Part shown: positions 22,322-44,584 of the stretch, in pieces
Numbering within the stretch: position 1 is the stretch's first letter
Layout: every line of letters starts with the position of its first letter
DNA from: Taibaiella sp.
GTDB lineage: Bacteria > Bacteroidota > Bacteroidia > Chitinophagales > Chitinophagaceae
Assembly (NCBI GenBank): GCA_019739295.1
Contig: JAHHDV010000037.1
Span: 28,437-92,436, forward strand
Length of the DNA stretch: 64,000 nucleotides
Direction: 5' to 3'
Position numbers and translations under genes: made by a program
The notes under the pieces: model-generated
Seen by the model: the letters and a program-made list of their open reading frames with translations, nothing else
The model's database searches: none
Told to the model about the DNA's origin: nothing

Positions 22322-25300
22322 CTACTTACTTTTTTTAATGTGAATTTGTATGTTTTGGTTATTGATCTCCACTTCCTCCCATTCCAGGTCGTTGCCGTTA
22401 TTACTGAAGGAGATCATATCAGCTAATGTTTCCGCCTTGATATACTGATCGTATTTCTGAACAGTAGTGCTCATACTCTCCGCGTTCTTCAAATAGATCT
22501 CAATCCTGTCCGTCAGCTCCAGATCCTGTTCTTTTCTGATCTTCTGAAGCCTGTTGATCAGTTCTCTGGCATTGCCTTCCTCTTCCAGGTCTTCAGTGAT
22601 CGTAATATCCAATGCTGCTGTCAGGCTACCTTTGGAAGCTACAGACCAGCCGGGAATATCTCCGGCTGTTATTTCTACATCTTCAGGTACAATAGACACC
22701 TGTTGCCCGTTGATCTCACAGGTTATCCCGCCTTCCTGTTCTATCCTGTTGATCTGCTCCTGGCTGAAATTACTGATCATAGCTGCCAGGTCTTTCATCA
22801 GCCCGCCTACTTTTTTGCCTAAAGTCTTAAAGTTAGGTTTTATTTTTTTATTCATGAAAATATTATCAGGCTCCAGGTATTCTATTTCCTTAATGTTGAC
22901 TTCTGAAAGAATGATGTCTTTTACCTTTTCGACCTGTTGCTTCACCTGCTCATTCAATACCGGAATCAATACCTTGGATAATGGCTGACGTACCCTGATA
23001 TTTTCTTTCTTACGTATGGACAGGATCAAGGAGGAAATATCCTGTGCGCTTTGCATTCTTTGTTCCAGGTCCTCCTGGATGTATTCCTGGTGCTTCTCCG
23101 GGAAATCCATAAGATGAACAGAAACAGCCTGGTGCTTTCCTGAAGTCCTGTTCAGGTTCTGGAACAGCCAGTCTGCAAAGAAAGGAGATACAGGAGCGAT
23201 TAATAAGGATAAGGTCTCTAAGCATTCGTACAATGTCTGGTATGCAGAGATCTTGTCCTCATTGTATTCGCCTTTCCAGAATCTCCGCCTGCTGAGCCGC
23301 ACATACCAGTTGCTCAGATGCTCATCTACAAAATGCTCAACAGCTCTTCCCGCCTGTGTGGGCTCATAGTCATCCATGAAAACCGTGACCTTTTCAATCA
23401 AGGTATTCAAAGCGGAAATGATCCACTGGTCCATTTCATGCCTTTGCGCTACCGGAATAGGGTTTTTCGCTGTAAGTGAATCCGTCCACATTGGCATACA
23501 GGGCCAGGAACTGGTAGGTATTGAATAAGGTGCCGAAGAATTTTCTCTGGATCTCTTCGATCCCTTTGATATCAAACTTCAGGCTGTCCCAGGGAGATGC
23601 ATTGGTGATCAGGTACCAGCGGGTAGCATCTGCGCTATATTTCTCAATGGTAGCAAACGGATCTATAACATTGCCCAGTCGCTTGCTCATCTTATTCCCA
23701 TGCTTATCCAGCACCAGCCCGTTAGATACCACAGCCTTATAAGCGATACCCGTATATTTCCGGCTATCGGCAGGTATATCCAGGCTGTTTAATTTTTCTA
23801 TTATAGATTCCTGTAGTAATGCACCCAGTGCGTGCAATGTATAGAACCAGCCCCTGGTCTGGTCTACTCCTTCCGCAATGAAGTCTGCAGGATAGTTCTG
23901 TGCAAAAGTCTCCTGGTTATCAAACGGGAAATGCCATTGTGCAATAGGCATTGCACCACTGTCGAACCAGACATCGATCAGGTCCGGTTCCCTGTACATC
24001 GGCTTACCATTAGCAGAGATGAGCGTAATGTTGTCGATATAAGGCCGGTGAAGATCCTGTACGAACCTGTCCAGATCCGTATCCGCAGGCATGAGACCAG
24101 CAGCTACTGCTTTGACTATTTCTTCTTTAAGATGAGCTATCGAAGAGATGCAAAGGCTTTCTTCCCCATCTTCCGTCATCCAGATCGGTAACGGTGTACC
24201 CCAAAAGCGGCTTCTGCTCAGGTTCCAGTCTACCATATTTTCCAGCCAGTTGCCGAATCGCCCTTCCCCGGTGGATTTAGGCTTCCAGTTGATGGTCTTA
24301 TTGAGCGCTACCATTTTATCCTTTAGTGCAGTGGTCCTGATGAACCATGCGTCCAAAGGATAATAGATGATCGGCTTATCTGTCCGCCAGCAATGCGGAT
24401 AATTGTGTTCGTACTTTTCTATTTTAAAAGCCTGGCCCCTGAGTTTTAATGCAATGGAAATATCTACATTGACATCCTGGTAATCAGGCTCGTCCTTATA
24501 GTTCTTTACATAACGGCCCGCATAATCCCCCGTCCCGGGAATGAATTTTCCTTCTCTGTCTACCAGGTTGATGAGGCCGATGTTGTTTTTTCTGCCTACA
24601 AGATAATCATCAGCACCATGTGCCGGTGCAGTATGTACAATACCCGTACCATCTTCCGTAGTCACAAAATCCCCGACCAGAACCCTGAAGGGATCTCCCC
24701 CGCTGAGCTCAGGTCTGTTGCTTTCAAACTGAAATAACTGATAATAGCGCGCACCTTCCAGGTCCTTTCCTGAGCAAGTTGCCAGAACCTGATAAGGCAG
24801 GACTTTACCTTTTTCTTCCTCCTGACCGATCGTGTCGATATCTTCTACGCGGGCTTCCGGCTTAAAATACCTGGAAAGAAGCTGGCTCGCTAAAATGACA
24901 TTTTGTAATTCGCCGGTGTAGGGATTGAATGTCCTGACCAATGAATATTCAATCTTAGGACCTACGGTAAGCCCTAAGTTAGAAGGAAGCGTCCAGGGTG
25001 TGGTCGTCCAGGCCATGAAATAAATATCATCATTGATATGGGGAAACAAAGCTCCGACGGATTCTTCCTTCATCTTGAACAGTACCGTAGCAGAAGTGTC
25101 CTTCACATCCTTGTAAGTACCGGGCTGGTTCAATTCATGCGAGCTCAGACCTGTGCCGGCTGCCGGAGAATAAGGTTGTATGCTGACACTTTTGTACAAA
25201 AGATCTTTTTTGTATAATTCGGAAAGTGCCCACCATAAAGATTCTATATATTCATTCTTGAATGTAATATAAGGATCATCCAGGTCTACCCAGTATCCCA

Positions 25301-25718
25301 TTTTCGTCGTCAATTCATCCCATTTGTCCTTAAACCTCATCACAGCTTCCCTGCACCTTTTATTGTATTCTTCTACCGTGATTTTTGTACCGATATCTTC
25401 TTTCGTAATACCCAGCTCTTTCTCTACACCCAGTTCCACAGGTAATCCATGTGTATCCCAGCCCGCTTTTCTTTTAACCTGGTACCCACGCATCGTTTTG
25501 TATCTGCAGACCAGATCTTTGAGTGTCCTGGAGATAACGTGATGTATCCCCGGCATACCATTGGCACTCGGAGGACCTTCATAGAATACAAAAGGCTGCC
25601 GGGCATTCCTGTTGGTAACGGATTGCTCAAATACTTTATGATCTGACCATTGAGAAAGCAGGTTTTTCTCAATTTCAGGCATATTTAAATTGTTATATTC
25701 TATATATCTGGTGCTCAT
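22322..25718 (-). CDS. ileS: Isoleucyl-tRNA synthetase, eukaryote-like type (frameshifted)
   Basis: The start is taken at 25718 (MSTRYIEYNNLNMPEIEKN). Class I signatures are GMPGIHH (a HIGH variant, about residues 54-60) and KMSKR (about residue 675). The editing domain is large, and the C-terminal half carries the anticodon-binding region. The frame breaks near 23480-23490, where an extra C in an ACCC run shifts the reading; correcting it gives SEKPIPVAQRHEMDQW and about 1,131 residues in total. Length and motifs fit the IleRS2/eukaryote-like group common in Bacteroidota, which in other species is less sensitive to mupirocin. A -7 element lies at 25743-25750. Confidence 0.93.
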
Positions 25719-25742
25719 TCGGGACTGTTCAAAAAAATGGTG

Positions 25743-25750
25743 CAAATGTA
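25743..25750 (-). promoter_or_regulatory. -7 element of the ileS promoter
   Basis: On the minus strand TACATTTG matches the Bacteroidota -7 consensus 25 bp upstream of the chosen ileS start. The -33 region is weak. Confidence 0.4.
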
Positions 25751-31317: not shown

Positions 31318-33139
31318 ATGACCAGAGCGTATTTTTCCGAAAACGTAACACCTGCCCTTCCCCATGCACCGGGGATCTACAGGTATTATGATGCCCGCAG
31401 GAAAATCATATATGTGGGCAAAGCCATAGATATTAAGAAGAGGGTGAGTTCGTACTTTCTGAAAAATGACCACTCACCCAAGACCAGAGCGCTTGTACAG
31501 GAAATAGACCATATCGAATATACGGTTACGCAGAGTGAGCATGATGCATTCCTCCTGGAAAATTCACTGATCAAACATTTCAAGCCTTATTATAACATTG
31601 CCCTGAAAGATGATAAGTCCTACCCTTTTGTCGTGATCAGGAATGAGGATTTTCCAAGGATGTACCTGACCAGAAGGTATGTTAAAGACGGCTCTGAATA
31701 TATCGGCCCGTTTACAGATGTATATACGGTGAAGCAATTATTACAATTGATCAGGTACGCGATTCCTTTAAGAACCTGCAATCTCCCTTTGACCCCCGCC
31801 AGTATTGCCAAAGGGAAGTTCAAAGTCTGCCTGGAATACCACCTGGGCAACTGCAAGGGACCTTGTGAAGGGAAGCAGTCCCTGGAGGAATATAATAGCA
31901 GTATCAAGACCGCAAAGAAACTGCTGAAAGGGAACCTGGCTTCGGTCATCAGGGATCTGAAGACCCGGATGGAGCAGGCGGCAGCTACACTTGCATTTGA
32001 AAAGGCTGCCCAACTCAAGCAGCAGATCGATGCTTTTAAGAATTATGAAAACAACTCGACAGTAGTCAGCACTAAAATAGGAGACATCGATGCAGCTACC
32101 CTGGTGGATACGGAACATCAGGCCTTTGTCAATTACCTCATTGTCAGGAATGGACTGGTGCTGCATTCCAAGAATATAACCATAGACAAAAAATTAGATG
32201 AAGAGCCCAAAGACATTCTCTCATTTGCCATTTCCAATCTGAGACCTCTGCTGGATACTTCCGGAAAAGAGATTTTAGTCCCTTTTGAAGTGAACCTGGA
32301 GGACAAGGATGTCGTTCAATCTATCCCGATAGCCGGAGATAAACGCAAGATCCTGGATATGAGTTTTACCAATGCCCACTATCAAAAAGAAGCTTTTGAA
32401 AAAAAAACGCAGGCTGCTGCTCCAGGATAAAACCCAGGATGAGAGAGAAGCAGTTCTCCTTCAGATCCAGAAAGAGCTGCATCTGAACAGGATACCCAGG
32501 CATATAGAGTGTTTTGATAATTCAAATTTTCAGGGTTCCTATCCTGTAGCGGCTATGGTTTGCTTTAAGGACGGATTGCCCTTTAAAAAGGAATACAGGC
32601 ATTTTCATATCAAAACGGTAGAAGGGATCAATGACTTTGCTTCAATGGAGGAGATCGTCTTCAGGAGGTATAAGGCCGTGATTGAAGAAGGCAAGCCCCT
32701 GCCCGACCTGATCATCATTGATGGGGGTAAAGGTCAGTTAGGTGCGGCTATGCATAGTATCGGATCCCTTGGATTATTGGGAAAAGTAACTGTCGTGGGA
32801 CTGGCAAAGAGAGAAGAGCTCCTCTTCTTCCCCGGTGATAAAGATCCTGTCCGGCTGGAATATAATGGAAAACCTATGCTGCTCATCCGCAGGATCAGGG
32901 ATGAGGTCCACAGGTTTGGCATTACCTTTCACCGGAAGACAAGGAGCAAAGGCACCATCAAAAATGAGCTGGAGGAGATCAAGGGTATAGGTAAGAAAAT
33001 AGCGGAACAATTGCTGCTTACTTACCGGTCTGTCCCTAATATCAGTCGGCTCAGCGAGGAGGAATTAGCCCAGTCCATCGGAAAGGGAAAGGCCAGGCTC
33101 GTGTACAGGTATTTTCATCCTGATGAGGACAGTATTTAG
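31318..33139 (+). CDS. uvrC: Excinuclease ABC subunit C (frameshifted)
   Basis: The GIY-YIG nuclease domain is N-terminal (APGIYRYYDARRKIIYVGKA), followed by the Cys cluster CNLPLT/CLEYHLGNCKGPCEG, the UVR domain (FEKAAQLKQQIDAF), the second nuclease domain (IECFDNSNFQGSYPVAAMV, IIDGGKGQLGAA) and a C-terminal helix-hairpin-helix (IKGIGKKIAEQLL). It makes both incisions in nucleotide excision repair with UvrA/UvrB. One extra A in the nine-A run at 32399-32407 shifts the frame; without it the protein reads FEKKRRLLLQDKTQDER and is about 606 residues. Probably a sequence error. Confidence 0.93.
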
Positions 33140-33236
33140 ACCCACATCCGTTCATGCATCTTTTCCTGGTCATTTATAGACGGGATTGTACCTAAAATTG
33201 TATAATTTTAAATTCTCAACCCGAGTTATCGTATCA

Positions 33237-33812
33237 TTGAATCTATATAGAAATATACCCAATATCCTTTCCGGGTACAGGATCCTGGCACTGCCGGTCA
33301 TTGTCTATGCATTGGTAACGGAAGATCATACATTGTTCATCGTTCTGATCTCCATCAACCTGCTTACCGATATCCTGGATGGCTTGATTGCAAGAATGTT
33401 TGACCTGGAATCAGAATTGGGCGCCAGGCTGGATTCGATAGCAGATATCGGCACATACCTGATGGCGGTAAGCGGGATGTGGATTTTGGAAAAAGACTTT
33501 GTGACCGATAAGAAATACGAATTTGCCTTGCTGGTCATCCTGTGGTTGCTGCCTCAGCTGGTTTCATTTGTCAGGCATTTCAGGTTTCCGAGCTTTCACT
33601 TGTATTCCAATAAAGTGACCGGGTATTTCCAGGGTATATTTATTTTTACTTACTTTTTATTTGGTTACAATAGTCTGCTTTTCTACTCCATGCTTATCAT
33701 CAGTTGTGTTGCCTACCTGGAAGAATTGTATTTTGTGCTCAAATTGTCCCAACTTCAGTCCAACCTGAAAAGCATTTTCCATTTTCACAGATTGAATAAG
33801 AATAACCATTAA
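33237..33812 (+). CDS. CDP-alcohol phosphatidyltransferase family protein
   Basis: A membrane enzyme of about 190 residues with the full CDP-alcohol phosphotransferase signature DG-x2-AR-x8-G-x3-D-x3-D (DGLIARMFDLESELGARLDSIAD). It moves a phospho-alcohol head group from CDP-activated lipid (or the reverse) with CMP release. No ATG opens the frame. TTG at 33237 is used; an upstream TTG at 33186 is also open, and if one T of the ATTG at 33236-33239 is an insertion the original start would be ATG (MNLYRNIPNILSGYRIL). It is followed 2 bp later by a cytidylyltransferase gene. The head group is unknown. Confidence 0.82.
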   Translation: MNLYRNIPNILSGYRILALPVIVYALVTEDHTLFIVLISINLLTDILDGLIARMFDLESELGARLDSIADIGTYLMAVSGMWILEKDFVTDKKYEFALLVILWLLPQLVSFVRHFRFPSFHLYSNKVTGYFQGIFIFTYFLFGYNSLLFYSMLIISCVAYLEELYFVLKLSQLQSNLKSIFHFHRLNKNNH

Positions 33813-33814
33813 TC

Positions 33815-34555
33815 ATGTCCTTACCTGTAGAGCTCATCGTCATCGTTTGTCTGTATTTCCTTATTGGAGCTATTGCTATCATTACCATCAATCGCAGAGG
33901 GCAGGATCCTCAAAATAAGGAAAGATGGATTAAATACTGGTTCTATTTATTGGTAATCCTGGTCACAATTCTTTCTATCCAGTACCTGTTCTTCACCTGG
34001 ATCGCCTTATTCATCAGTGTCATGGGCCTGTTCGAAATCATCAGTGCCTGGTGGAGATCGGGAAAAAGGAAAGCATGGGTGCTTATCATTGGTTTGTTCC
34101 TTTACCTCGTGATTGCCTTTGGATTTTTATTGTTTGCCTGGGATAGTGACAGCACTTACCTGCTTTTTACCTATACTTTAATTTTTACACAGGATGGTTT
34201 TGCACAGATCATCGGGCAATTGATGGGCAGGAAAAAATTTTTACCGGCCATTAGCCCGGACAAAACCCTGGCAGGCGTGGTGGGAGGATGTGCAGCAGCA
34301 CTTGTTATTTCCGCATTCATCTATAAATGGCTGGGTACCTATCTTCCTTCAGTGTGGATACTGATACCCCACATTCTGATTACCTGCTTCGGAGGACTGG
34401 CCGGTGATATCCTGGCTTCCAAATTTAAAAGGATTTGTGGTATTAAGGATTATTCGAATCTGATACCCGGGCATGGAGGCGTACTGGACCGGTTCGACAG
34501 CTTTATGCTGGCAGGAGCGATATTGGGTTACCTGATTAGATGTGAAATATTATGA
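33815..34555 (+). CDS. CdsA-like phosphatidate cytidylyltransferase
   Basis: A 246-residue polytopic membrane protein with about seven helices and the CdsA C-terminal signature GIKDYSNLIPGHGGVLDRFDS, whose Asp residues bind metal and CTP. Such enzymes make CDP-diacylglycerol or another CDP-lipid from CTP and a lipid phosphate. It starts 2 bp after a CDP-alcohol phosphotransferase gene and overlaps the UbiA-like gene by 4 bp (ATGA), so the three are translationally coupled. It may be a dedicated second CdsA for this pathway rather than the housekeeping one; that is inference. Confidence 0.85.
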   Translation: MSLPVELIVIVCLYFLIGAIAIITINRRGQDPQNKERWIKYWFYLLVILVTILSIQYLFFTWIALFISVMGLFEIISAWWRSGKRKAWVLIIGLFLYLVIAFGFLLFAWDSDSTYLLFTYTLIFTQDGFAQIIGQLMGRKKFLPAISPDKTLAGVVGGCAAALVISAFIYKWLGTYLPSVWILIPHILITCFGGLAGDILASKFKRICGIKDYSNLIPGHGGVLDRFDSFMLAGAILGYLIRCEIL

Positions 34556-35523
34556 ATATCAAAAGAAAGCAGAATGAATATACCCTCAGCAGCGAACAGC
34601 ATGCATCTTTCCTGAAAAGGTTCTGGATCTATCAGAAAGAGCGATTCCCGTTTATGGGACATGGTCTCCTGGTGGCTGCATTTAGTTTTTCTGCTGTTTC
34701 ATATTCCCGGATATGCAGAGGTGAGCCGGGCTTTGTAGAATGGAAGACCTTTCTGGTGGGGATTTTTACTACCATTTCACTGTTCCTGCTGGTGCGCATA
34801 TTCGATGAGTTTAAAGATGCTGCAGACGATGAGCGATACCGCCGGGAGCTGCCGGTGCCCAGGGGACTGGTTTCCTTAAAGGAGCTTCGGGACCTGGGCA
34901 TCATCCTTGTGATCTTTCAAATCACAATCAATTGGATCTTTTTTCCCAAGATGTTGCTCTTGTACGGAATAGCGGTAGGATACCTGTGTCTCATGGGAAA
35001 AGAATTTTTTATCAGTGAATGGCTGAAGAAGCATCAATTCTGGTATGTCGTTTCTCATATGTTCATCATCCCATTGATTGATATCTATGCCAGCGGCCTG
35101 GACTGGCTGCTTAAAGGTGTTCCCGCTCCTCCCGGTTTATTATTTTTCTTCGCTGTATCCTTTATGAGCGGTATCGTTTTGGAGATCGGAAGAAAGATCA
35201 GGATTCCCGAAGATGAACAGGCCGGGGTACTGACTTATTCTGCTATGCATGGGGATCGGAAAGCTACCCTGCTTTGGATATTGATGTTATTCCTTTCCTT
35301 CGTATTCAGCATTGCTGCATCAGGGTATGCGGGCTACGGCAATACAGGTTGGATCGTACTTACGGTACTGTTTATCATTTCTGCTGTTCCGGCAATGCTC
35401 TACCTGAATCGTGCGGGCAGGAAACGGGCCAAAATGATAGAAGCGTTTTCCGGTCTCTGGGCCATCTCCATGTATCTTACGCTTGGTGGTGTGCCGATGC
35501 TGGAAAGGCTGGTCGGGTCATAA
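34552..35523 (+). CDS. UbiA-superfamily prenyltransferase-like membrane protein
   Basis: A 323-residue protein with about eight to nine helices and the two Asp-rich motifs of the UbiA fold: RIFDEFKDAADDERYRREL (about 82-100) and RKIRIPEDEQAGVLTYS (about 214-230). UbiA proteins transfer isoprenoid (or phosphoribosyl) groups from a diphosphate to an acceptor at the inner membrane. The second motif is not the usual DxxxDxxxD. It overlaps the CdsA-like gene by 4 bp. The acceptor may be a lipid or a small molecule made by the neighbours; unknown. Confidence 0.78.
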   Translation: MNIKRKQNEYTLSSEQHASFLKRFWIYQKERFPFMGHGLLVAAFSFSAVSYSRICRGEPGFVEWKTFLVGIFTTISLFLLVRIFDEFKDAADDERYRRELPVPRGLVSLKELRDLGIILVIFQITINWIFFPKMLLLYGIAVGYLCLMGKEFFISEWLKKHQFWYVVSHMFIIPLIDIYASGLDWLLKGVPAPPGLLFFFAVSFMSGIVLEIGRKIRIPEDEQAGVLTYSAMHGDRKATLLWILMLFLSFVFSIAASGYAGYGNTGWIVLTVLFIISAVPAMLYLNRAGRKRAKMIEAFSGLWAISMYLTLGGVPMLERLVGS

Positions 35524-35555
35524 TCCGGTAAGTATTTTCAAAAGAGAAACATTGA

Positions 35556-36551
35556 CTACCTGATGAGTTTTGCAATCTTTTTCAGGTCTTTCTTCCTGAA
35601 GTTGTATGCCATGCTGTAATGTTCGGAATACAATAGCTGACCGGTTCCGCTATCATAGATGCTGATCCATTTGGTAGTGGAGCATTTGGCATACACTAAA
35701 TATTTTATGGACCTGCTTTGATCCAGTATCATTTTATTGAGCTCTTCCTGGCTTACAAACCGGACAGGGTATTTATAGGCCTCTGTCAGCTCCTCATCTT
35801 TATGTTCCTTTTCATCTTCCGCACCTGTAAAAATATTCAATTGAATATTGACATAATCCGGAATATACAGGGTATCCTTGGCCAGGGATTTTAATGGTGC
35901 TTTCTCTTTGAGTTCATCATAGACCTGCTTGGTCTCGCCCGAGATCATGTAGTCATTGATCTCCTTGAGATAACCGGCCAGTATTCCCGGCTGCCAGTTG
36001 TAGAGCAGCGCATCGTTGTACATATACTGGGTAAGGGATGTACTGAAGTTTTTCTTCCCCTGGTAACTGAAAACTACACTGTTCATATAGGCATCAACAT
36101 CACCGAATAAGAATATTCTTGCCATCAGGGACCTGTCTCCCTTAGGCCGGGAATCATGAGGCATCCAGAGGTCATAGGTAAAATACATATACTGGTGATC
36201 AAGTCCCTTCCCATAATTATGCTTGGTAAACATAAATCCTCCGAATGTACAAAATGAATAACCCGGCTTATTGGCAAAGTCAGAGACCTCTTTGGGACTG
36301 ATGATTCTGAATGGCGTTACAGTCCAGAATTTTTCAATTGCTTTTCTGAATTCTGCTTCATCATCGTAATCCCCGGATTGTAAAGTAAACAATGTCGTCG
36401 TTTTCCTGAATCGCTCGAATTCGCTTTTACTGATATCTCCTGCAGTGTAGATTTTTAATACTTCTTCCGACCCTACCTGTACCTGGCCATAACCTGTATA
36501 ATGGATTAAAAAAACAAATAAGAGCACAAGAAATGTAACGAAAGGTCGCAT
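35556..36551 (-). CDS. Hypothetical secreted protein
   Basis: A 331-residue protein with a signal peptide (MRPFVTFLVLLFVFLIHYTGYG). The mature part has no hydrophobic helices and no catalytic motif I recognise; one segment reads FRKAIEKFWTVTPFRII. It stands alone on the minus strand between the two halves of the lipid-chemistry locus, so it is probably not part of that pathway. Likely periplasmic or outer-membrane associated. Confidence 0.6.
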   Translation of the reverse strand: MRPFVTFLVLLFVFLIHYTGYGQVQVGSEEVLKIYTAGDISKSEFERFRKTTTLFTLQSGDYDDEAEFRKAIEKFWTVTPFRIISPKEVSDFANKPGYSFCTFGGFMFTKHNYGKGLDHQYMYFTYDLWMPHDSRPKGDRSLMARIFLFGDVDAYMNSVVFSYQGKKNFSTSLTQYMYNDALLYNWQPGILAGYLKEINDYMISGETKQVYDELKEKAPLKSLAKDTLYIPDYVNIQLNIFTGAEDEKEHKDEELTEAYKYPVRFVSQEELNKMILDQSRSIKYLVYAKCSTTKWISIYDSGTGQLLYSEHYSMAYNFRKKDLKKIAKLIR

Positions 36552-36665
36552 ATAGAATTATTTTTATTTCTAAAAGAAAGGAAAAAAAAGATGCAAATAT
36601 AAGTAAAGGAAAAGTCAAATTTAAAATATGTAACTACAGGTATCATCCGAAAACAATTACTTTGA

Positions 36666-37088
36666 ATGGGAAAACAGGAGGAACAGGATACCGGAGCAGG
36701 ATATAAAACTCAGTATATGTCTATAGTTATAGTTTATTTACTTTATATTTGGGTAGCTCTTATCCATTGTTTATTTGTCGGGGCTACGGTTTATTTATTT
36801 TTTGGTCATTTTTTCATCCGTCAAAGGCGTTGGGTGAATGTAGTTATTTTTTTAATTTGTTTAGCATTTCTTGAGGTATATTGGATTCCTGTTGCAGATG
36901 ATTTAGGACTGGTCATTCATACTGCCGATCAGGCACTGCTGGACTATTTTGATATCGATCCCAAGGAGAACATCGTTCCCCTGCTCCGTCCTAAAAATAT
37001 GCAATGGGTGATCTGGTTGATCTCGGGATGGATTGCGGACAGTGTCGGGAGATTTGGCTATAAAAAAATGCTTCAAAACAGTAAATGA
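36666..37088 (+). CDS. Small polytopic membrane protein of the lipid locus
   Basis: A 140-residue protein with three or four predicted helices. An internal ATG at 36717 (MSIVIVYLLYIWVALIH) is an alternative start that would remove a hydrophilic 17-residue lead. No family is recognised. Its stop overlaps the start of the phosphotransferase-like gene (ATGA at 37085-37088), so the two are translationally coupled. The context suggests a membrane anchor or partner for that enzyme, which is inference only. Confidence 0.6.
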   Translation: MGKQEEQDTGAGYKTQYMSIVIVYLLYIWVALIHCLFVGATVYLFFGHFFIRQRRWVNVVIFLICLAFLEVYWIPVADDLGLVIHTADQALLDYFDIDPKENIVPLLRPKNMQWVIWLISGWIADSVGRFGYKKMLQNSK

Positions 37089-39634
37089 TAATTATAGATT
37101 CTAATCATTCCGGGAAAAAAATTGGTGCAAAAGCCCAAAACCTGTTTCAATTACAAACATTGGGTATTGTCGTCCCCCCATTTGTCGTCATACCGGAAGA
37201 AGAATTGCAGCAAATATTGGATGCTCATCCCGGTAAGGATCCGGTTGAGGTTATCGAACAGATCCGTATACCGGAAGGATGGGAGGAGGAATTGAGAAGA
37301 AAACTGCCAAAGATAGAGTTATTCGCAGTAAGGTCTTCTGCCGGGATTGAAGATGGCATACAACACTCCTTCGCAGGACAATTTGAATCTTACCTGAACG
37401 TACCCGTTTCAGAAGTTGCAGTCCATATCAAGAAAGTCTGGAAGTCGGCATTTTCCCAAAGGGTCAGGTCCTACCTGGAAAATAAGCGTTTAGGAGATGA
37501 CTGGAGCATTGCGGTGATCATCCAGGCTATGGTACCTGCAGATAAATCGGGAGTAGCTTTCGGAGCTAACCCGGTGTCCGGTGACCGGGAAGAAAAAGTC
37601 CTCAATGCCGTATATGGCCTTGGAGAAGGATTGGTGTCCGGAGCATTGGATGCAGATACATACAATGTCAGGAAGGAACAAATCAAATTCCGGATTGCCC
37701 ATAAGACCCACCAGCTGATACTGGATCCAAAGGACCAGGAAGGAACGATCCAGGCAGATGTTCCTGCTGCACTCCGGGATCAGCCCGTATTGAGAAAAGA
37801 GCAGATTTTTGAAATCGCCCGGTTACTGGAAAAGCTTTTAGCGCATTACGGTACAGAACAGGATATAGAATTTGCTTATTTTGAAGACCGGTTATTCCTG
37901 TTTCAATCCCGGCCTATCACCCATCTGAAAATTACCGAAAATTATATCGTATGGGACAATAGTAATATTATTGAATCCTATCCCGGTGTGACTACGCCAT
38001 TGACATTCAGCTTTATCCGTAGGTCATACGAAGGTGCTTACAGGTTATTCAGCAGCTATCTCGGGGTCAGTGATCAGGTAATCCGGGAAAATGAAAAAGT
38101 ATATGCCCATACTTTGGGCCTGCTCAATGGAAGGGTATATTATAATCTAAGATCCTGGTACCAGATGTTGGCGATGCTTCCGGGCTATAGCATCAATGCC
38201 CGGTTTATGGAGCGGATGATGGGTGTCAAAGAAAAATTTGATGTGCCGGAGCATTTCCGTCTTTCCAAATCCAAAGCCTGGTGGCGCATTCTGAAGATGG
38301 CAGTAAAAATGCTCTCCAGGTATGTTTCTTTGCCGGGGAAGAGGAAAGCATTTTTTCAATTATTAAACCGGACCATTGCCGCTTATAAGGCCATAGACCT
38401 GGATAAAAAATCGGCATACCAGCTTAAAGAACTGTATTACCAGTTCGAAGATACCTTGCTTAAGGAATGGAAAGCCCCCTTGCTGAACGATTTTTTCGCT
38501 ATGATCTGGTTTGGAATGCTGGAAAAGGAAACCCGGAAGATGGAGATTCCTGAACAACCTAATATTCACAATGATTTGTTGTGCGGGAGTGCGGACATCA
38601 TCTCGGTGGAACCGATTCACAGGAGTCTCGAGTTAAGCCAGTTGATAACCGGGAGGGAACGGCTCAGGACACTATTTACGAACGAAGACCCCGGGACCAT
38701 TTACAAGTCGCTTCAGGCTGCCAGGGACAGTGATTCGAAAATCCTGTTTGATAAAATCAAAAAATATATTCACGATTTTGGCGAAAGGTGCGTGGGCGAG
38801 TTAAAATTAGAAACGGTTTCTTATACCCAGGACCCCACGTTGTTTATAAAGCTTCTTCAATCTTATGTCCAGAATAACATAACATTATCCCGGACTTCCG
38901 GCGATATAGAGGAGACCCTCCGGAAAAATGCTGAAGCGATCATAGATGAAAGAACGAAAGGAAGCTTCCTGCGCAGGTGGTGGATCAGGAAGCTCATGGC
39001 CAATACACGTTCCCTGGTAAGCGCAAGGGAGAATTTGCGGTATGAACGGACCAGGGCATTTGGTATCGTGAGGGAAATATTTACCCATATCGGTTACCGG
39101 TTTGCCGAACAAAAGCTTATCGGCTCCTACCGGGATATATTTTATCTGACCCAGGAAGAGATCTTCTCCTTCATAGAAGGAACTGCTATCAGCCAGGACT
39201 TAAGATATACGATAGAAAACCGCAGGAAAGAGTATGCTGCTTATGAAGCATCAGGCCCGCTTGCAGAACGGATCATCACTTACGGTATGGTCTATGATGG
39301 GAACGATTTCTTTGATGCATCTCATACAGAACAGGTAGACGGAGACTTAAAAGGTATAGGCTGCTGCCCGGGAATCATAGAAGCCCGGGTCCGCGTGGTT
39401 CATCATCCGGGTGAAGTGAGCAGCCTGGAAGGAGATATCCTGGTGACGACAAGTACGGACCCCGGCTGGGTTACGCTGTTCACGAGTGCTTCAGGGATCA
39501 TCGTAGAGAGAGGGTCCTTACTGAGCCATTCGGCTATAGTTTCCCGGGAGATGGGCATTCCCTGCATCGTCAGTGTAACGGGCCTGCTGAAAACACTGAA
39601 GACCGGGGACAGGATAAAAAATGGATGGAAGTAA
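37085..39634 (+). CDS. PEP-synthase/rifampin-phosphotransferase-like dikinase
   Basis: An 849-residue protein. The N-terminal third is a PPDK/PEP-synthase ATP-binding domain (FAVRSSAGIEDGIQHSFAGQFESYLNV kept in pieces; VYGLGEGLVSG; FLFQSRPIT). The central third is not recognisable. The C terminus is the swivelling phospho-His domain (LLSHSAIVSREMGIP, His815). In PEP synthase the His domain is followed by a PEP-binding barrel; here the protein ends 34 residues later, as in rifampin phosphotransferases, which move a phosphate from ATP to an alcohol. I infer an ATP-dependent phosphotransferase acting on a hydroxyl of a lipid or small molecule made at this locus. Confidence 0.8.
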   Translation: MIIIDSNHSGKKIGAKAQNLFQLQTLGIVVPPFVVIPEEELQQILDAHPGKDPVEVIEQIRIPEGWEEELRRKLPKIELFAVRSSAGIEDGIQHSFAGQFESYLNVPVSEVAVHIKKVWKSAFSQRVRSYLENKRLGDDWSIAVIIQAMVPADKSGVAFGANPVSGDREEKVLNAVYGLGEGLVSGALDADTYNVRKEQIKFRIAHKTHQLILDPKDQEGTIQADVPAALRDQPVLRKEQIFEIARLLEKLLAHYGTEQDIEFAYFEDRLFLFQSRPITHLKITENYIVWDNSNIIESYPGVTTPLTFSFIRRSYEGAYRLFSSYLGVSDQVIRENEKVYAHTLGLLNGRVYYNLRSWYQMLAMLPGYSINARFMERMMGVKEKFDVPEHFRLSKSKAWWRILKMAVKMLSRYVSLPGKRKAFFQLLNRTIAAYKAIDLDKKSAYQLKELYYQFEDTLLKEWKAPLLNDFFAMIWFGMLEKETRKMEIPEQPNIHNDLLCGSADIISVEPIHRSLELSQLITGRERLRTLFTNEDPGTIYKSLQAARDSDSKILFDKIKKYIHDFGERCVGELKLETVSYTQDPTLFIKLLQSYVQNNITLSRTSGDIEETLRKNAEAIIDERTKGSFLRRWWIRKLMANTRSLVSARENLRYERTRAFGIVREIFTHIGYRFAEQKLIGSYRDIFYLTQEEIFSFIEGTAISQDLRYTIENRRKEYAAYEASGPLAERIITYGMVYDGNDFFDASHTEQVDGDLKGIGCCPGIIEARVRVVHHPGEVSSLEGDILVTTSTDPGWVTLFTSASGIIVERGSLLSHSAIVSREMGIPCIVSVTGLLKTLKTGDRIKNGWK

Positions 39635-39676
39635 AGGAACGATTCAGATTTTGGAAAAAGGGGATTAAGAAAATAA

Positions 39677-40780
39677 TTGAAAGTGAAAAAACAGTTAGAT
39701 AAGAAAGTCGCATTTGATTTTATCCGGTATGCCAATTGCTGGGAAGATGCAGATATCCTGCTGAAGGGGTTGCATCCGGCCAAAGGGTCATCCATTCTAT
39801 CTATTGGTTCTGCCGGGGATAATTCATTTTCACTTTTATCTACTCAACCCCGGGCTTGTGGTAGCTGTAGACCTGAACCCCGTTCAGCTTTACCTGATCG
39901 AGCTGAAAAAAGCATGTATTCAGACATTCGATCAGGCCACAAACGATTGGTTTCCTGGGATTTCAGAAATCGACCAACAGGTTGGCATTGTTTAATGAGA
40001 TATTTCCTCTTCTTTCTGAAAATGCACAGATCTTCTGGGTAAAGAATTTTGAACTTATTGAAAACGGGGTGATCCACCAGGGAAAGTTCGAACATTATTT
40101 CAGGATGTTTGTCAAGAAAAATCCTTCCCTTTATTCACAGCAGGAGTACAGTAACGGCATTATTTACACCCAAGTCAGGTGCAAGAACAGGAATTGTTTT
40201 ATGCGCAGCAATGGAAACAACTGGAAATGGCGCTTATTATTTAAATTTTTCTTTAGTAAGACTGTGATGGGCAGGTTAGGAAGAGACCCCCAAATTCCTC
40301 AAAGAAGTGCAGGTCAATGTAGCCGATTTCATTTTTTCCCAGGCAGAAAAAGAACTGAGCAGTGTAGATGCTTTTCACAATCATTTCCTGAGGTATAATC
40401 TTACCGGTGATTTTGGGGACCTTCTGCCGCATTATTTGCAGCCTGAACATTACGGGCATATTCAATCCCATATTCATCACCTGGAAATCTATAAGGGATT
40501 TGCTGAAGACGCTTTGCAGCGATATGGCCGGTTCGATTTTATGAACCTGTCCAATATTTTCGAATATATGAATCCCTATGAGTTCAAGCTGGTGGCAGAA
40601 CGGTTGGTGCAGGGAGTTCGCCCCAGGGGGCGCATAGCTTATTGGAACCTGATGGTACCCAGGCAGATCCATCAGCTATTCCCGTCTTCTGTATCCTGCC
40701 CGGATGGTGTTTCTGATACATTGACCCGGGCGGACAAAGGATTTTTCTATCAGCAATTTATAGTCAATCAAATTCACTAA
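39677..40780 (+). CDS. BtaA-like DUF3419 aminocarboxypropyl transferase homologue (several frameshifts)
   Basis: The family hallmarks RYANCWEDAD (17-26), ILSIGSAGDNS (SAM-binding loop), VVAVDLNPVQLYLIELK, GVIHQGKFEHYFR, NNWKWRLLF, GRLGRDP and FDFMNLSNIFEYM are all present, but in changing frames; breaks lie near 39845, 39980, 40180-40213 and 40285. Joined length is about 368. The start is TTG (39677) or GTG (39683). DUF3419 includes BtaA, which transfers 3-amino-3-carboxypropyl from S-adenosylmethionine to diacylglycerol in betaine-lipid synthesis. No BtaB methyltransferase is adjacent, so a different product is possible. Confidence 0.82.
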
Positions 40781-40787
40781 ATCACCC

Positions 40788-41458
40788 ATGAATCCGGACA
40801 TCAAGAATGCATTTATTTTAGCCGCCTGCTTTTTAGGGCTGTTTGTGATAGCAGAAGTGATCTACAGGCTTTTTCATGTAAAAGCGGAATACACCCGGAA
40901 GTTAGTCCATACAGGTACAGGACTCCTGGCACTTTTATTCCCTGTTCTTTTGAGCAGCCATTGGGCGGTACTCATCTTATGTGCAGCATTCGCACTGATA
41001 CTCACGATCAGTTTACAATACAAGTTTCTCCCTTCGATCAATGCGATAGAGCGGAGATCTGTAGGAAGTCTTGCATACCCGGCGGCGGTTTTATATCTGC
41101 TTTTTAGTATATGAATTCAATGCCTTTCAATATATTTATTACTATTTACCTATTCTTGTATTGGCCATATGTGATCCGGTTGCGGCATTGACGGGCAGCA
41201 GGTGGCAATGGGGAAAATTTCAGATCCGAAAAGAAAGCAAAACCTTAATGGGGTCGGCTATGTTTTTTTATTTCTGCTATTGCTCTTATTCTTTTGATGA
41301 TCCGGTATACGGGCTCATTTCCACTGAATGAAAGCACTATATTGAAAACAATTTTCATTGCTTTGATCACAACTGTCGCAGAAGCCATAACCAAAAAGGG
41401 CTGGGACAACCTGAGTATACCTATGGCAGTATTGCTGGGGATGGTTCTTTTGTTTTAA
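40788..41458 (+). CDS. Dolichol/phytol/diacylglycerol kinase-like (CTP-dependent) membrane protein (frameshifted)
   Basis: A polytopic protein of about 223 residues when joined: EYTRKLVHTGTGLLALLFP (the RKxxH motif of the family), ICDPVAALTGSRW and AEAITKKGWDNLSIPMAVL at the end. These are marks of the DGK1/SEC59/VTE5 group, which use CTP to phosphorylate dolichol, phytol, farnesol or diacylglycerol. The frame breaks near 41105 and 41275. It starts 7 bp after the DUF3419 gene. It could supply a lipid phosphate for the CdsA-like or UbiA-like enzyme; substrate unknown. Confidence 0.78.
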
Positions 41459-41473
41459 CCGTATAAAAAGTCG

Positions 41474-42497
41474 ATGACAACAAAGTATATGGAATGTATT
41501 CAAATCTCTAAAGAAGACCGGGACTTCTCCCTGTTTGGACAAGTGCTTGAAGCGATCTATACACCTGAGCAGGTTGTCTTTAAATCCAGAGAATCCATAC
41601 CTGAACAGCATCTTCATACCTGTCTTGTCATTACAGACCGCGGTAAACCCATCGCCAGGACTGCACTTTATTTCAACCCTGATCTGAAGTATAAAGACCA
41701 TAGAGCAGCATGTATCGGTTCGGTAGAGTCGACCCATGATACTATAGCTTTGGAATTCCTGATTTCCAAAGCGGCATCCCTTGCCAGAGAGCATGGCTTT
41801 TCCTATCTCATAGGCCCGATGAGTGGCTCTACCTGGGAGGCTTACCGGTTCAGTTTTGAAAACCATTTCCCACTATTTTTTACGGAACAGCTGCAGCAGG
41901 AATATTATAATGACCTGATGGTTCAAACCGGGTTCGAAACGATAAGTGAATATTTTTCCAGCTTTACTTATGATGTAGCGTTTCGGTTTCCGGAATTTGA
42001 AGCCCTCAACCGGTATTTCCTTGACATGGGAGTACAGGTTTCCCCGATCTTATCGGAACACTACCTCGATGAGCTGCCTGTACTGTATGAATTTTTATCG
42101 CGGGCCTTCCAGCGTAATTTTTTATATACCCCTGTTTCAAAAGAACAGTTTATCAATAAATACAGTGAATTCCTGCCCCTGGTGGATCCGGATTATGTAT
42201 TGAAAGCCAATGATGCAAAAGGTAACCTGATCGGTATCTATTTCTGCATTCCTGATATATATAATGCCAGTGAAAAGACCTTGATCATAAAATCTGCTGC
42301 ACGTAATCCCGGTCCGGGGTGGCGCGGTCTGGGACATTGGATGGGACAGCATATATATGATAATGCCTTAAAAAAACGGTTTTGAAAAGGTCATCCATGC
42401 ATTTATGAAAACAGATGGCACCTCCAATACGATCTCTCAAAATTTCTTGGGTAAACCTTTCAAACAATATAGACTATATGGCAAAGAAATTCTTTAG
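41474..42497 (+). CDS. GNAT-like acyltransferase (frameshifted at 3' end)
   Basis: About 340 residues. The layout resembles a GNAT-fold N-acyltransferase (ARTALYFNPDLKYKDHRAACIGSVES, then SYLIGPMSGSTWEAYRFS, in pieces). The frame is lost at an A-run near 42370-42376 and continues as KNGFEKVIHAFMKTDGTSN to the stop at 42495-42497. It starts 15 bp after the CTP-kinase-like gene and its end overlaps the SRPBCC gene by 20 bp. An acyl-transfer role on an amino group would fit a lipid pathway; this is inferred from fold resemblance only. Confidence 0.55.
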
Positions 42498-43062
42498 GAT
42501 ACTATGGGTCATCCTGGCAGTCTTTGTGACAGGCTCCGTAGCGATGATCGCCTTCAGCCCTTATGGTAAGGACCCGGAATTTCCATACAGGCTGGTGAGG
42601 ACAACGGTGACCATAGACCGGCCTAAGGCCATAGTTTTTGAATATCTGGGTCATTCGGCATATGCTTCGGATTGGTCTGTATTCGTACATCATATCACCC
42701 CCATCAATGCGGACAGCTTCCCGGATGGTTCGGTAGGTTCCAGAAGACGTGTATATTGCTATGAAAATGAAGAAGGCAGAAGATGGGATGAACTGATTGC
42801 TGAAGTGCTCCCTGATGAGAAAAGACAATTAGAATTGTACAACTTTATCGGGTTCCCCATGGATGCCGATCACCTGGCCACCGAGCAGATCTATAAAGAA
42901 ACAAAAGAAGGACATACAGAGCTTACTTTTACCGTTTTTTTTAAGCATCATGAACCGGGTTTGTACGATTTGTATAAAATGTACCTGGGGGCTTATAAGA
43001 TCTATGATATATTTGAACAAAATATGAATAACATCAAGCAAATTGTAGAAAAGGCGTATTGA
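42478..43062 (+). CDS. Membrane-tethered SRPBCC (START-like) domain protein
   Basis: The start is set at ATG 42478 (MAKKFFRILWVILAVFVTG), giving an N-terminal transmembrane anchor and then a polyketide-cyclase/SRPBCC domain (VTIDRPKAIVFEYLGHSAYASDWS in pieces, GSVGSRRRVYCYENEEG, ELTFTVFFKHHEPG), 194 residues. SRPBCC proteins have a deep hydrophobic pocket that binds lipids or polyketides. Facing the periplasm at the membrane, it may carry or bind the product of the locus. It is followed 4 bp later by the adenylating ligase gene. Confidence 0.75.
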   Translation: MAKKFFRILWVILAVFVTGSVAMIAFSPYGKDPEFPYRLVRTTVTIDRPKAIVFEYLGHSAYASDWSVFVHHITPINADSFPDGSVGSRRRVYCYENEEGRRWDELIAEVLPDEKRQLELYNFIGFPMDADHLATEQIYKETKEGHTELTFTVFFKHHEPGLYDLYKMYLGAYKIYDIFEQNMNNIKQIVEKAY

Positions 43063-43066
43063 TCCT

Positions 43067-44584
43067 ATGCAGCAACTGAATATAGCCGACTTATTCTATC
43101 AGCAGGCCAAGGCAAATCCCGGAAAAACCGCGATCATTGACGGTTCGTCCTCTGTTACTTTTGCCCGGCTTAAGGAAGACATCGAATGCACTGCCCAGTA
43201 CCTGATAGACCAGGGTATAAAAAAAGGAGATGCTGTAATGATCTTCGTTCCTATGAGTATAGACTTGTACCGTACTGTCCTGGCTATATTCAGAATCGGG
43301 GCGATAGCCGTCTTTTTAGACGAATGGGTCAGCATCCGAAGGCTGAAAGCATGCTGTACCTTGGTACCTTGCAAAGCGATGATCGGCAACTGGAAAGCGC
43401 GTGTCCTGGGCTGGCTACTGTCACCCATCAGGAAGATTCCCATACACCTCTCCCCTATCCACCCGGCTATTCCCGGTCATCATCCATATGAGGCTACGTC
43501 ACCGGGAGATACGGCGCTCATTACTTTCACCACAGGGAGTACGGGAGTGCCAAAGGCTGCCAACAGAACGCATGGATTCCTCAAAGAACAATTCATAGCT
43601 CTTGAAGAAAAACTCCGGCCTCATCCCGGTGAGACCGATATGCCGGTATTGCCGATCGTACTGCTGATTAACCTTGCTACAGGGAATACATCTGTTATTG
43701 CTCCTTTTAAATCTTCCAAACCGGAAAAGATGAAACCGGGTAAAATCTTTGAGCTCTTGGTAAAACACAGCGTCAACAGGATTATATCTTCTCCCTACTT
43801 TATTAAAAGGCTGGCCCGATACCAGGAGCAGCATAGAATTCCTGTCCCAGATCTCCACCGGATATTTACGGGAGGGGCACCTGTATTCCCTTCTGAAGCA
43901 GGCAGCTATCTCCGGGCGCTTCCGGATGTGGATATCGAGATCGTATACGGATCTACGGAAGCAGAACCTATCTCGGGTATCAAAGCTCAGGATCTGGCAA
44001 AAACAGATCCCTGTGATGGCCTGGATGTGGGATTCCCATTTTATAAAGCCAGGGTTAAAATCATCAATATTACGGATGAACCTATCCAGTGCGATTCTGA
44101 AGAAGAGCTGGCTGTCTTAGAGACCCCGGGTATAGGGGAGATCATTGTCAGTGGTCCTCATGTCTTGGCTTCGTATATCAATAATGAAGCAGCCATCCGG
44201 CGAAACAAGATATTCGTCAGGGATGTATGCTGGCACAGGACGGGAGACAGCGGTTACATAAAAGATGGACGATTATACTTAACCGGCAGATGCAGTACCT
44301 TAATCGCATACGAAAATGAAATCATTGCTCCTTTTACATACGAAGCTATTCTGGCAGAGCTGAAGGGTGTCGAGATGGGAACAGTGATGCGGTGGGAAGA
44401 CAGGCTGCTCGTAGTGGTGGAAAAGGACATGAACGAAACGGAGGAAGCAATAAGAAAATCAGTCAAAGGGATCGTTGTATTTCCTCATTCCCTGTTGTTC
44501 ATAAAGAAGATACCGAAAGATCCCCGTCACCATTCCAAAATTGATTATGAACGACTGAAGCAAATCGTTTCAAGGAAAATGTAA
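43067..44584 (+). CDS. AMP-dependent acyl-adenylating ligase (OleC/fatty-acid-CoA ligase-like)
   Basis: A 505-residue member of the ANL superfamily: P-loop TFTTGSTGVPKAANRTHG (153-170), YGSTEAEP (294-301), HRTGDSGYIKDGRLYLTGR (390-408) and a C-terminal catalytic-lysine region DPRHHSKIDY. It should activate a carboxylate as acyl-AMP. The YGSTEAEPIS loop and C terminus resemble OleC (beta-lactone synthetase) more than ordinary acyl-CoA synthetases, but oleA/B/D are absent. It ends the locus; a fatty or beta-hydroxy acid substrate is plausible but unproven. Confidence 0.8.
   Translation: MQQLNIADLFYQQAKANPGKTAIIDGSSSVTFARLKEDIECTAQYLIDQGIKKGDAVMIFVPMSIDLYRTVLAIFRIGAIAVFLDEWVSIRRLKACCTLVPCKAMIGNWKARVLGWLLSPIRKIPIHLSPIHPAIPGHHPYEATSPGDTALITFTTGSTGVPKAANRTHGFLKEQFIALEEKLRPHPGETDMPVLPIVLLINLATGNTSVIAPFKSSKPEKMKPGKIFELLVKHSVNRIISSPYFIKRLARYQEQHRIPVPDLHRIFTGGAPVFPSEAGSYLRALPDVDIEIVYGSTEAEPISGIKAQDLAKTDPCDGLDVGFPFYKARVKIINITDEPIQCDSEEELAVLETPGIGEIIVSGPHVLASYINNEAAIRRNKIFVRDVCWHRTGDSGYIKDGRLYLTGRCSTLIAYENEIIAPFTYEAILAELKGVEMGTVMRWEDRLLVVVEKDMNETEEAIRKSVKGIVVFPHSLLFIKKIPKDPRHHSKIDYERLKQIVSRKM

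Follow-up and report, generated by a model that had tools for sequence, protein, structure and literature searches.

In the betaine lipid pathway of BtaA and BtaB, BtaA transfers an aminocarboxypropyl group from S-adenosylmethionine (SAM). Other described systems that resemble the locus considered here are the archaeal-type ether lipid pathway of FCB bacteria, which uses GGGP and DGGGP synthases (PMC7852524); the ebo cluster (EboA-E, UbiA-297), with TatD, dehydroquinate-synthase-like and TIM-barrel partner genes (PMC9235831); rifampin phosphotransferase with its three-domain scheme (PMC4844700); and the fungal siderophore genes SidI-SidH-SidF, in which a ligase and an acyltransferase place a mevalonate-derived acyl group (PMC3709128). 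Here, we examine a gene locus at 33186-44584 of a 64,000-nucleotide stretch of Taibaiella sp. DNA (assembly GCA_019739295.1, contig JAHHDV010000037.1, positions 28,437 to 92,436 of the forward strand), which as a whole we call the window, together with the conserved Bacteroidota operon to which the locus belongs. Judged from sequence, the chances are about even that this operon makes an undescribed amphiphile, namely a prenyl-ether lipid whose aminocarboxypropyl head is N-acylated and which contains mevalonate as one building block. Since every enzyme family involved is already known, we rate the operon as a variant among operons for lipid or amphiphile biosynthesis and not as a new category. 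No description of it appeared in the open-access full-text literature as represented by titles and the beginnings of abstracts, a corpus that does not reach most subscription papers.

A profile built from 36 dikinases retrieved loci from GTDB genomes, and linkage was counted on the best 80 of 84 confirmed dikinase loci, with contigs that have room as denominators; because the dikinase served to find the loci, these counts are conditional on it. Neighbourhood comparison across Bacteroidota had been set beforehand as a check in a preliminary description of the window, and the families proved to be kept as one operon in the 80 dikinase loci. Carriers include Sphingobacterium, Parapedobacter, Dyadobacter, Rhabdobacter, Microscilla, Fluviicola, Owenweeksia, Saprospiraceae, Chitinophagales and others. 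The gene order, obtained by clustering all open reading frames (ORFs) without prior labels and by profile searches, is HMG-CoA reductase (HMGR) - (CDP-alcohol transferase - CdsA) - UbiA - dikinase - DUF3419 - kinase - GNAT - (SRPBCC) - ligase, with optional members in brackets. The core neighbours of the dikinase are UbiA (71/74), DUF3419 (69/73), the kinase (67/72), a tandem GNAT (66/69) and the ligase (63/65), and HMGR lies nearby as the operon's leading gene in 60 of 69 loci. CDP-alcohol transferase and CdsA are each present in 13/69 loci, SRPBCC in 11/67 (sitting upstream in L040, L056 and L073) and a small membrane protein in 2/80. The ten-gene set first proposed for the window therefore divides into six conserved families, dikinase included, and these four optional ones; nor was it the full complement, as the main further member, HMGR, had not been foreseen and is missing from the window, in the whole of which a profile search found no HMGR gene.

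The genes are closely packed, with gaps of at most 30 nt between UbiA and dikinase in 53/66 loci, between dikinase and DUF3419 in 59/68, at the next two junctions in 57/63 and 56/59, and between GNAT and ligase in 46/52; these counts use the nearest possible start and are thus upper bounds. Exceptions occur: L036 has HMGR through dikinase and no genes beyond the dikinase, and six loci (L015, L024, L062, L072, L074, L079) have UbiA and lack HMGR despite room for it. Dozens of loci repeat this order, an arrangement far beyond chance, and the genes very probably serve one pathway. A second sample comprised 198 genomes spread evenly over the phylum and chosen independently of the dikinase except for its centre; at a threshold of E 1e-100 the dikinase is found in five of these, centre included, with DUF3419 nearby in all five and HMGR in four.

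Like BtaA-BtaB, the operon has a DUF3419 enzyme (PF11899) that likely carries out SAM aminocarboxypropyl transfer, but its conserved genes include no methyltransferase family. In a midpoint-rooted tree, DUF3419 proteins from the operon described above (72 of type I) and from the variant forms taken up below (10 of type II, 1 of type III) stand together with a support of 0.945, apart from ten proteins with methyltransferase neighbours, which are joined with a support of 1.0. Identity with the betaine lipid pair was rejected because of this separate clade and the missing methyltransferase partner; the BtaA-like character proposed in the preliminary description thus holds for the domain and not for membership of the methyltransferase-paired clade. 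The ten loci of that clade (L145-L154) have DUF3419 near a methyltransferase-like gene of 198-220 amino acids (aa), nine directly and one with one gene between, two of them having been checked by Pfam, and probably represent BtaA-BtaB betaine lipid synthesis in other Bacteroidota.

Like the ebo cluster, the operon has a UbiA enzyme within a conserved gene set of Bacteroidota and elsewhere that has no assigned product. The ebo partner genes named in PMC9235831, however, are not those of the operon, and the window UbiA reaches 20.6 bits with the EboC model NF035940 (cut-off 250); the ebo cluster was rejected on these two grounds. As in archaeal-type ether lipid synthesis, the operon has a UbiA that by sequence is nearest, among solved structures, to DGGGP synthase and, in a subset of loci, CdsA-like and CDP-alcohol enzymes, yet it adds HMGR, dikinase, DUF3419, GNAT and ligase, and CdsA is limited to the 13 of 69 loci noted above. 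GGGP synthase (PF01884) was rejected as an obligate partner, being present in 29 of 40 carrier genomes and missing from 11. The dikinase resembles rifampin phosphotransferase, PigC, RedH and PEP synthase in its ATP-binding domain and its swivelling His domain with a conserved His. Its early comparison to rifampin phosphotransferase was apt for this architecture and does not extend to the curated model NF041857 (281 bits vs a cut-off of 999), and the operon partner genes differ too. The parallel with SidI-SidH-SidF is an analogy of logic only.

The leading HMGR appears to set the operon apart from isoprenoid supply. In a survey of isoprenoid genes in 40 of the 80 carrier genomes, HMGR was found in 39, IspH, the last step of the methylerythritol phosphate (MEP) route, in 32, and mevalonate-diphosphate decarboxylase (MDD, PF18376) in 10; IspH is present in all 30 MDD-negative genomes. 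The operon copy of HMGR occurs in 37 of the 40, namely in 28 of those 30 without MDD, where it is the sole HMGR in 26, and in nine of the ten MDD-positive ones, each of which has a second, divergent HMGR elsewhere. This second enzyme is hardly seen by the operon HMGR profile, adjoins a GHMP-kinase match in 7/9 cases and by eye looks class II. Given the operon HMGR in MDD-negative genomes and the second HMGR in the nine MDD genomes, the operon is likely not for supply of isopentenyl diphosphate (IPP). A place for its HMGR within the housekeeping mevalonate pathway was rejected because MDD is present in 10/40 genomes and IspH in every MDD-negative one. Two further markers carried no weight: TIGR00549 mevalonate kinase exceeded its cut-off in 0/40 genomes, MDD carriers included, and is non-discriminating, and the HMG-CoA synthase families PF01154 and PF08540 exceeded theirs in 1/40 genomes each, being also missing in 9/10 MDD genomes and hence uninformative.

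The operon HMGR of L001 scores 390 bits with PF00368 and 336 bits with TIGR00533, below the latter's cut-off of 441.8 though far above that of Pfam, and 47 bits with the degradative model TIGR00532, which suggests a class I-like enzyme. Glu, Asp-Lys-Lys, Asp, His and Arg are kept in all 63 operon HMGR rows (62 distinct, L142 repeating L019); we take these to include the catalytic Glu, Lys, Asp and His and the HMG-binding Arg, Asp and Lys. They all belong to a single clade with 65 members and a support of 0.931, in which the other two are L141 and L091. L141 (genome G014) is a second operon-type HMGR beside only CDP-alcohol transferase and CdsA, and from it these three genes may form a sub-module.

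A pathway can be proposed from these families, its steps being given here in no particular order. HMGR would convert HMG-CoA to mevalonate, and UbiA would attach a polyprenyl group to an acceptor alcohol, like its relative DGGGP synthase, the nearest solved structure by sequence (E 2.6e-8). Among the families listed by Foldseek and VIA-align, in a comparison that took in two models, the UbiA of a relative (L059) is also closest to UbiA structures by fold. By alignment, a canonical first motif DExKDxxxD and a non-canonical second motif E..RK(6)E are both present in 65/65 relatives. The dikinase would transfer a phosphate of ATP via its own histidine to a hydroxyl. It comprises PF01326 at residues 12-283, a long middle part and the swivelling His domain PF00391 at 782-844, with the motif GSxLSHSAIV in 72/72 relatives. 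It matches 25 NCBIfam models, every one below its own cut-off, with PigC and RedH among the RPH-like ones; with PRK06241.2-2 it scores 706 bits (cut-off 883), and databases name the clade PEP synthase, pyruvate,water dikinase or rifampicin phosphotransferase. The membrane kinase, whose motifs are kept in 55, 56 and 60 of 63 relatives and an intact relative of which reaches 20 bits with PF01148 (cut-off 24), would phosphorylate a lipid alcohol.

DUF3419 (211 bits with PF11899 in L001) would supply the head group, placing a SAM-derived aminocarboxypropyl group on an alcohol. The ligase would activate a beta-hydroxy acid, most likely mevalonate; its closest models are PRK09274 (330 bits, below the cut-off of 478) and the OleC type (179.9 and 178.6 bits against cut-offs of 900 and 850). 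GNAT, with two GNAT domains in a single chain, would move the activated acyl group to the new amine, as SidI and SidF do in fungi, where SidF acts on an amine. Neither the GNAT nor the DUF3419 profile gave a clear match among PDB sequences. GNAT also lies near DUF3419 in loci that have neither UbiA nor dikinase, at L155 (Acetyltransf_1 36 bits, one gene between) and directly adjoining at L157 (18 bits, below the cut-off of 25), pairs that weakly fit an acylated aminocarboxypropyl amine; at L156, the DUF3419 profile matched nothing. Where present, CdsA and the CDP-alcohol transferase, which has the motif D..DG..AR(8)G...D...D in 13/13 relatives, would add a phosphatidyl-type link. The product would be moved by SRPBCC or, in type II, by an MMPL exporter. 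We regard the product as probably lipid-like and give its inclusion of mevalonate slightly less than even chances. Rather doubtful is the more specific proposal that Bacteroidota without a mevalonate pathway keep a dedicated class I-like HMGR for a mevalonyl amino-acid ether lipid, in which the ligase would activate mevalonate and GNAT would pass it to the DUF3419 amine on a UbiA prenyl ether; we know of no organism with this lipid class.

Variant loci narrow the set of shared genes. A screen of 291 Cytophagales-order genomes (the order of G008, Dyadobacter) gave a dikinase match in 22, and wider DNA was examined for the 11 whose best dikinase match was below 600 bits. Ten of these 11 loci are of the type II form; of the 11, all have the dikinase, ten each have UbiA and DUF3419, nine each have GNAT, the ligase and an APH-like kinase, and seven have an MMPL-family gene, the APH-like and MMPL families being named by Pfam on L120 and by similarity elsewhere. 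Neither HMGR nor the CTP-type kinase was found within type II clusters. The type III locus (L096:5737-14631) encodes a fatty acyl reductase, diacylglycerol kinase, UbiA, dikinase, GNAT, phosphatidylserine decarboxylase and DUF3419. The lipid theme of the preliminary description is borne out by these additions, with three further lipid genes in L096 (the diacylglycerol kinase, the decarboxylase and the reductase) and MMPL in type II. At L127:4027-11572, an HMGR-APH kinase fusion lies three genes from a divergent dikinase, accompanied by two P-loop kinases and a PF14907 nucleotidyltransferase, and its APH domain is homologous to the type II kinase over 354 residues (E 7e-32); HMGR and dikinase are thus linked once more, in a small cluster of another kind. 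From the gene content of the variants, the core seems to consist of UbiA, dikinase, GNAT and DUF3419, with the alcohol-forming reductase and small kinase varying.

Several observations weigh against the proposed amphiphile. The substrates proposed for ligase and GNAT come only from their families and gene neighbours. UbiA has a replacement at its second Asp motif, and given this its substrate may be unusual. The HMGR falls short of the TIGR00533 cut-off, as noted, and is lacking from 3/40 type I operons; an operon-type HMGR also stands alone at L091:8839-10092 (G065), in a genome without dikinase at E 1e-100. Five of the 80 dikinase loci (L042, L052, L066, L068, L078) are without other core genes, some contigs ending early. 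Among type II genomes, HMGR is found elsewhere in 6/10 and nowhere in 4/10, and the type III genome has none, so mevalonate is not needed by every form. HMG-CoA synthase above cut-off is missing from 39/40 genomes, and leucine breakdown is a guess at the HMG-CoA source. The window itself has no HMGR, so mevalonate supply at its locus is unproven.

Other readings of the same genes have to be set beside the amphiphile. The patchy spread of the dikinase (5/198 phylum genomes, 22/291 in one order), the MMPL-family gene in 7/11 wider Cytophagales loci, the PigC and RedH models among its RPH-like matches and the tandem GNAT and ligase families, which are common in specialised metabolism, would all suit a small specialised metabolite that is secreted, perhaps with a prenyl or mevalonyl group, in place of a membrane lipid. 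However, the type I membrane kinase, UbiA, SRPBCC, CdsA and CDP-alcohol transferase point to lipid substrates, as do the type III diacylglycerol kinase and phosphatidylserine decarboxylase, and we hold a secreted product to be unlikely. That the genes are chance neighbours from separate housekeeping pathways can be given hardly any credence and was rejected on the conserved linkage over 80 loci: each family is also found elsewhere in bacteria, five dikinase loci lack the other core genes, and 23 of the 28 phylum genomes with DUF3419 (out of 198) have no dikinase at E 1e-100, but the order is conserved and genes overlap in many groups of the phylum, and the DUF3419 proteins form a clade of their own.

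Two more readings, both improbable, make the operon a supplier of prenyl diphosphate to UbiA. In one, an alternative route from mevalonate, the ligase would form a beta-lactone, as does the beta-lactone synthetase OleC, loss of CO2 would follow, and kinase and dikinase would phosphorylate the resulting isoprenol. Such a route would account for an operon HMGR in 28/30 MDD-negative genomes, for a ligase nearest PRK09274 and OleC models and for two phosphorylating enzymes beside a prenyltransferase, but IspH is present in all 30 of those genomes, the operon HMGR is also retained in nine MDD genomes, a decarboxylating partner was not seen, and DUF3419 and GNAT are left unexplained. The other is prenol salvage, known from plant VTE5/VTE6, with the membrane kinase and dikinase rebuilding the diphosphate from free prenol. 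It agrees with the kept kinase motifs and with the frequent placement of kinase (67/72) and UbiA (71/74) near the dikinase; it leaves HMGR, DUF3419, GNAT and ligase without a role, however, and in types II and III the kinase is instead APH-like or of the DAG type.

At the window locus, all ten genes that the preliminary description had listed are present by Pfam, relatives' profiles or, for the small membrane protein, blastp, and two ATGA-type overlaps (34552/34555 and 37085/37088) are visible. The features are as follows.

33186..33812, + strand: CDP-alcohol phosphotransferase; PF01066 (CDP-OH_P_transf) 70 bits, relatives' profile 283 bits; optional, 13/69 relatives
33815..34555, + strand: CdsA-like CTP transferase; PF01148 (CTP_transf_1) 147 bits, profile 282 bits; optional, 13/69
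34552..35523, + strand: UbiA-type prenyltransferase; PF01040 55 bits, relatives' profile 528 bits
35556-36551, - strand: opposite-strand gene inside the operon, 331 aa, apparently secreted; no family match in Pfam or NCBIfam
36666..37088, + strand: small membrane protein; its gene overlaps the dikinase gene by ATGA
37085..39634, + strand: dikinase of rifampin-phosphotransferase architecture; PF01326 (PPDK_N) 204 bits, PF00391 (PEP-utilizers) 74 bits
39677..40780, + strand: DUF3419 aminocarboxypropyltransferase-like gene; PF11899 on three pieces, read in three frames
40788..41455, + strand: integral-membrane CTP-type polyprenol/lipid kinase; profile pieces of 152, 89 and 53 bits, three frames
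41474..42494, + strand: tandem GNAT N-acyltransferase-like gene; final part in a different frame
42415..43062, + strand: SRPBCC lipid-pocket protein; profile match at 42478-43053, 249 bits; optional, 11/67
43067..44584, + strand: acyl-adenylating ligase; PF00501 (AMP-binding) 142 bits, relatives' profile 715 bits

The small membrane protein has no Pfam match, and its homologues adjoin UbiA in the two loci where blastp found them (L036, 117 bits; L072, 83 bits). Pfam likewise gives no match for the window's kinase piece or GNAT, both of which match the relatives' profiles. SRPBCC, at 18.2 bits, stays below its Pfam cut-off of 27.4, and its real start is probably downstream of 42415.

Scoring every reading frame separately against relatives' profiles located frame breaks in the dikinase C-terminus (1), DUF3419 (3), kinase (2) and GNAT (1), several 'genes' being split ORFs. 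The dikinase C-terminus is lost through its break at about 39616. The DUF3419 gene matches PF11899 in pieces of 42.1, 20.5 and 47.1 bits, the second below the cut-off of 28.2, and the relatives' profile in pieces of 86, 39, 122 and 215 bits, with a fifth, overlapping piece of 16 bits. Outside the operon, uvrC (31318-33139, just upstream) is split over two frames, and a class I tRNA synthetase (22322-25745) is likewise spread across two. Of the eight places where the frame switches within the operon or uvrC, six coincide with a run of at least six equal bases. The contig likely carries indel errors, sequencing or assembly error being the simplest reading of the breaks. Pseudogene decay of the window was rejected, though the rejection is not proven, because uvrC and the tRNA synthetase are split too and homopolymer runs mark the switches, which makes sequencing error the likelier cause.

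HMGR is known as the target of statins and as the entry to isoprenoids. If an HMGR is indeed tied to a lipid operon in bacteria lacking the rest of that route, mevalonate would gain a second role and orphan HMGRs in genomes would be explained; the RPH-like dikinase clade would also acquire a function, as would a clade of DUF3419 proteins which may be mistaken in annotation for betaine lipid synthesis. The carrier genera Dyadobacter and Sphingobacterium are in culture, which makes the question testable.

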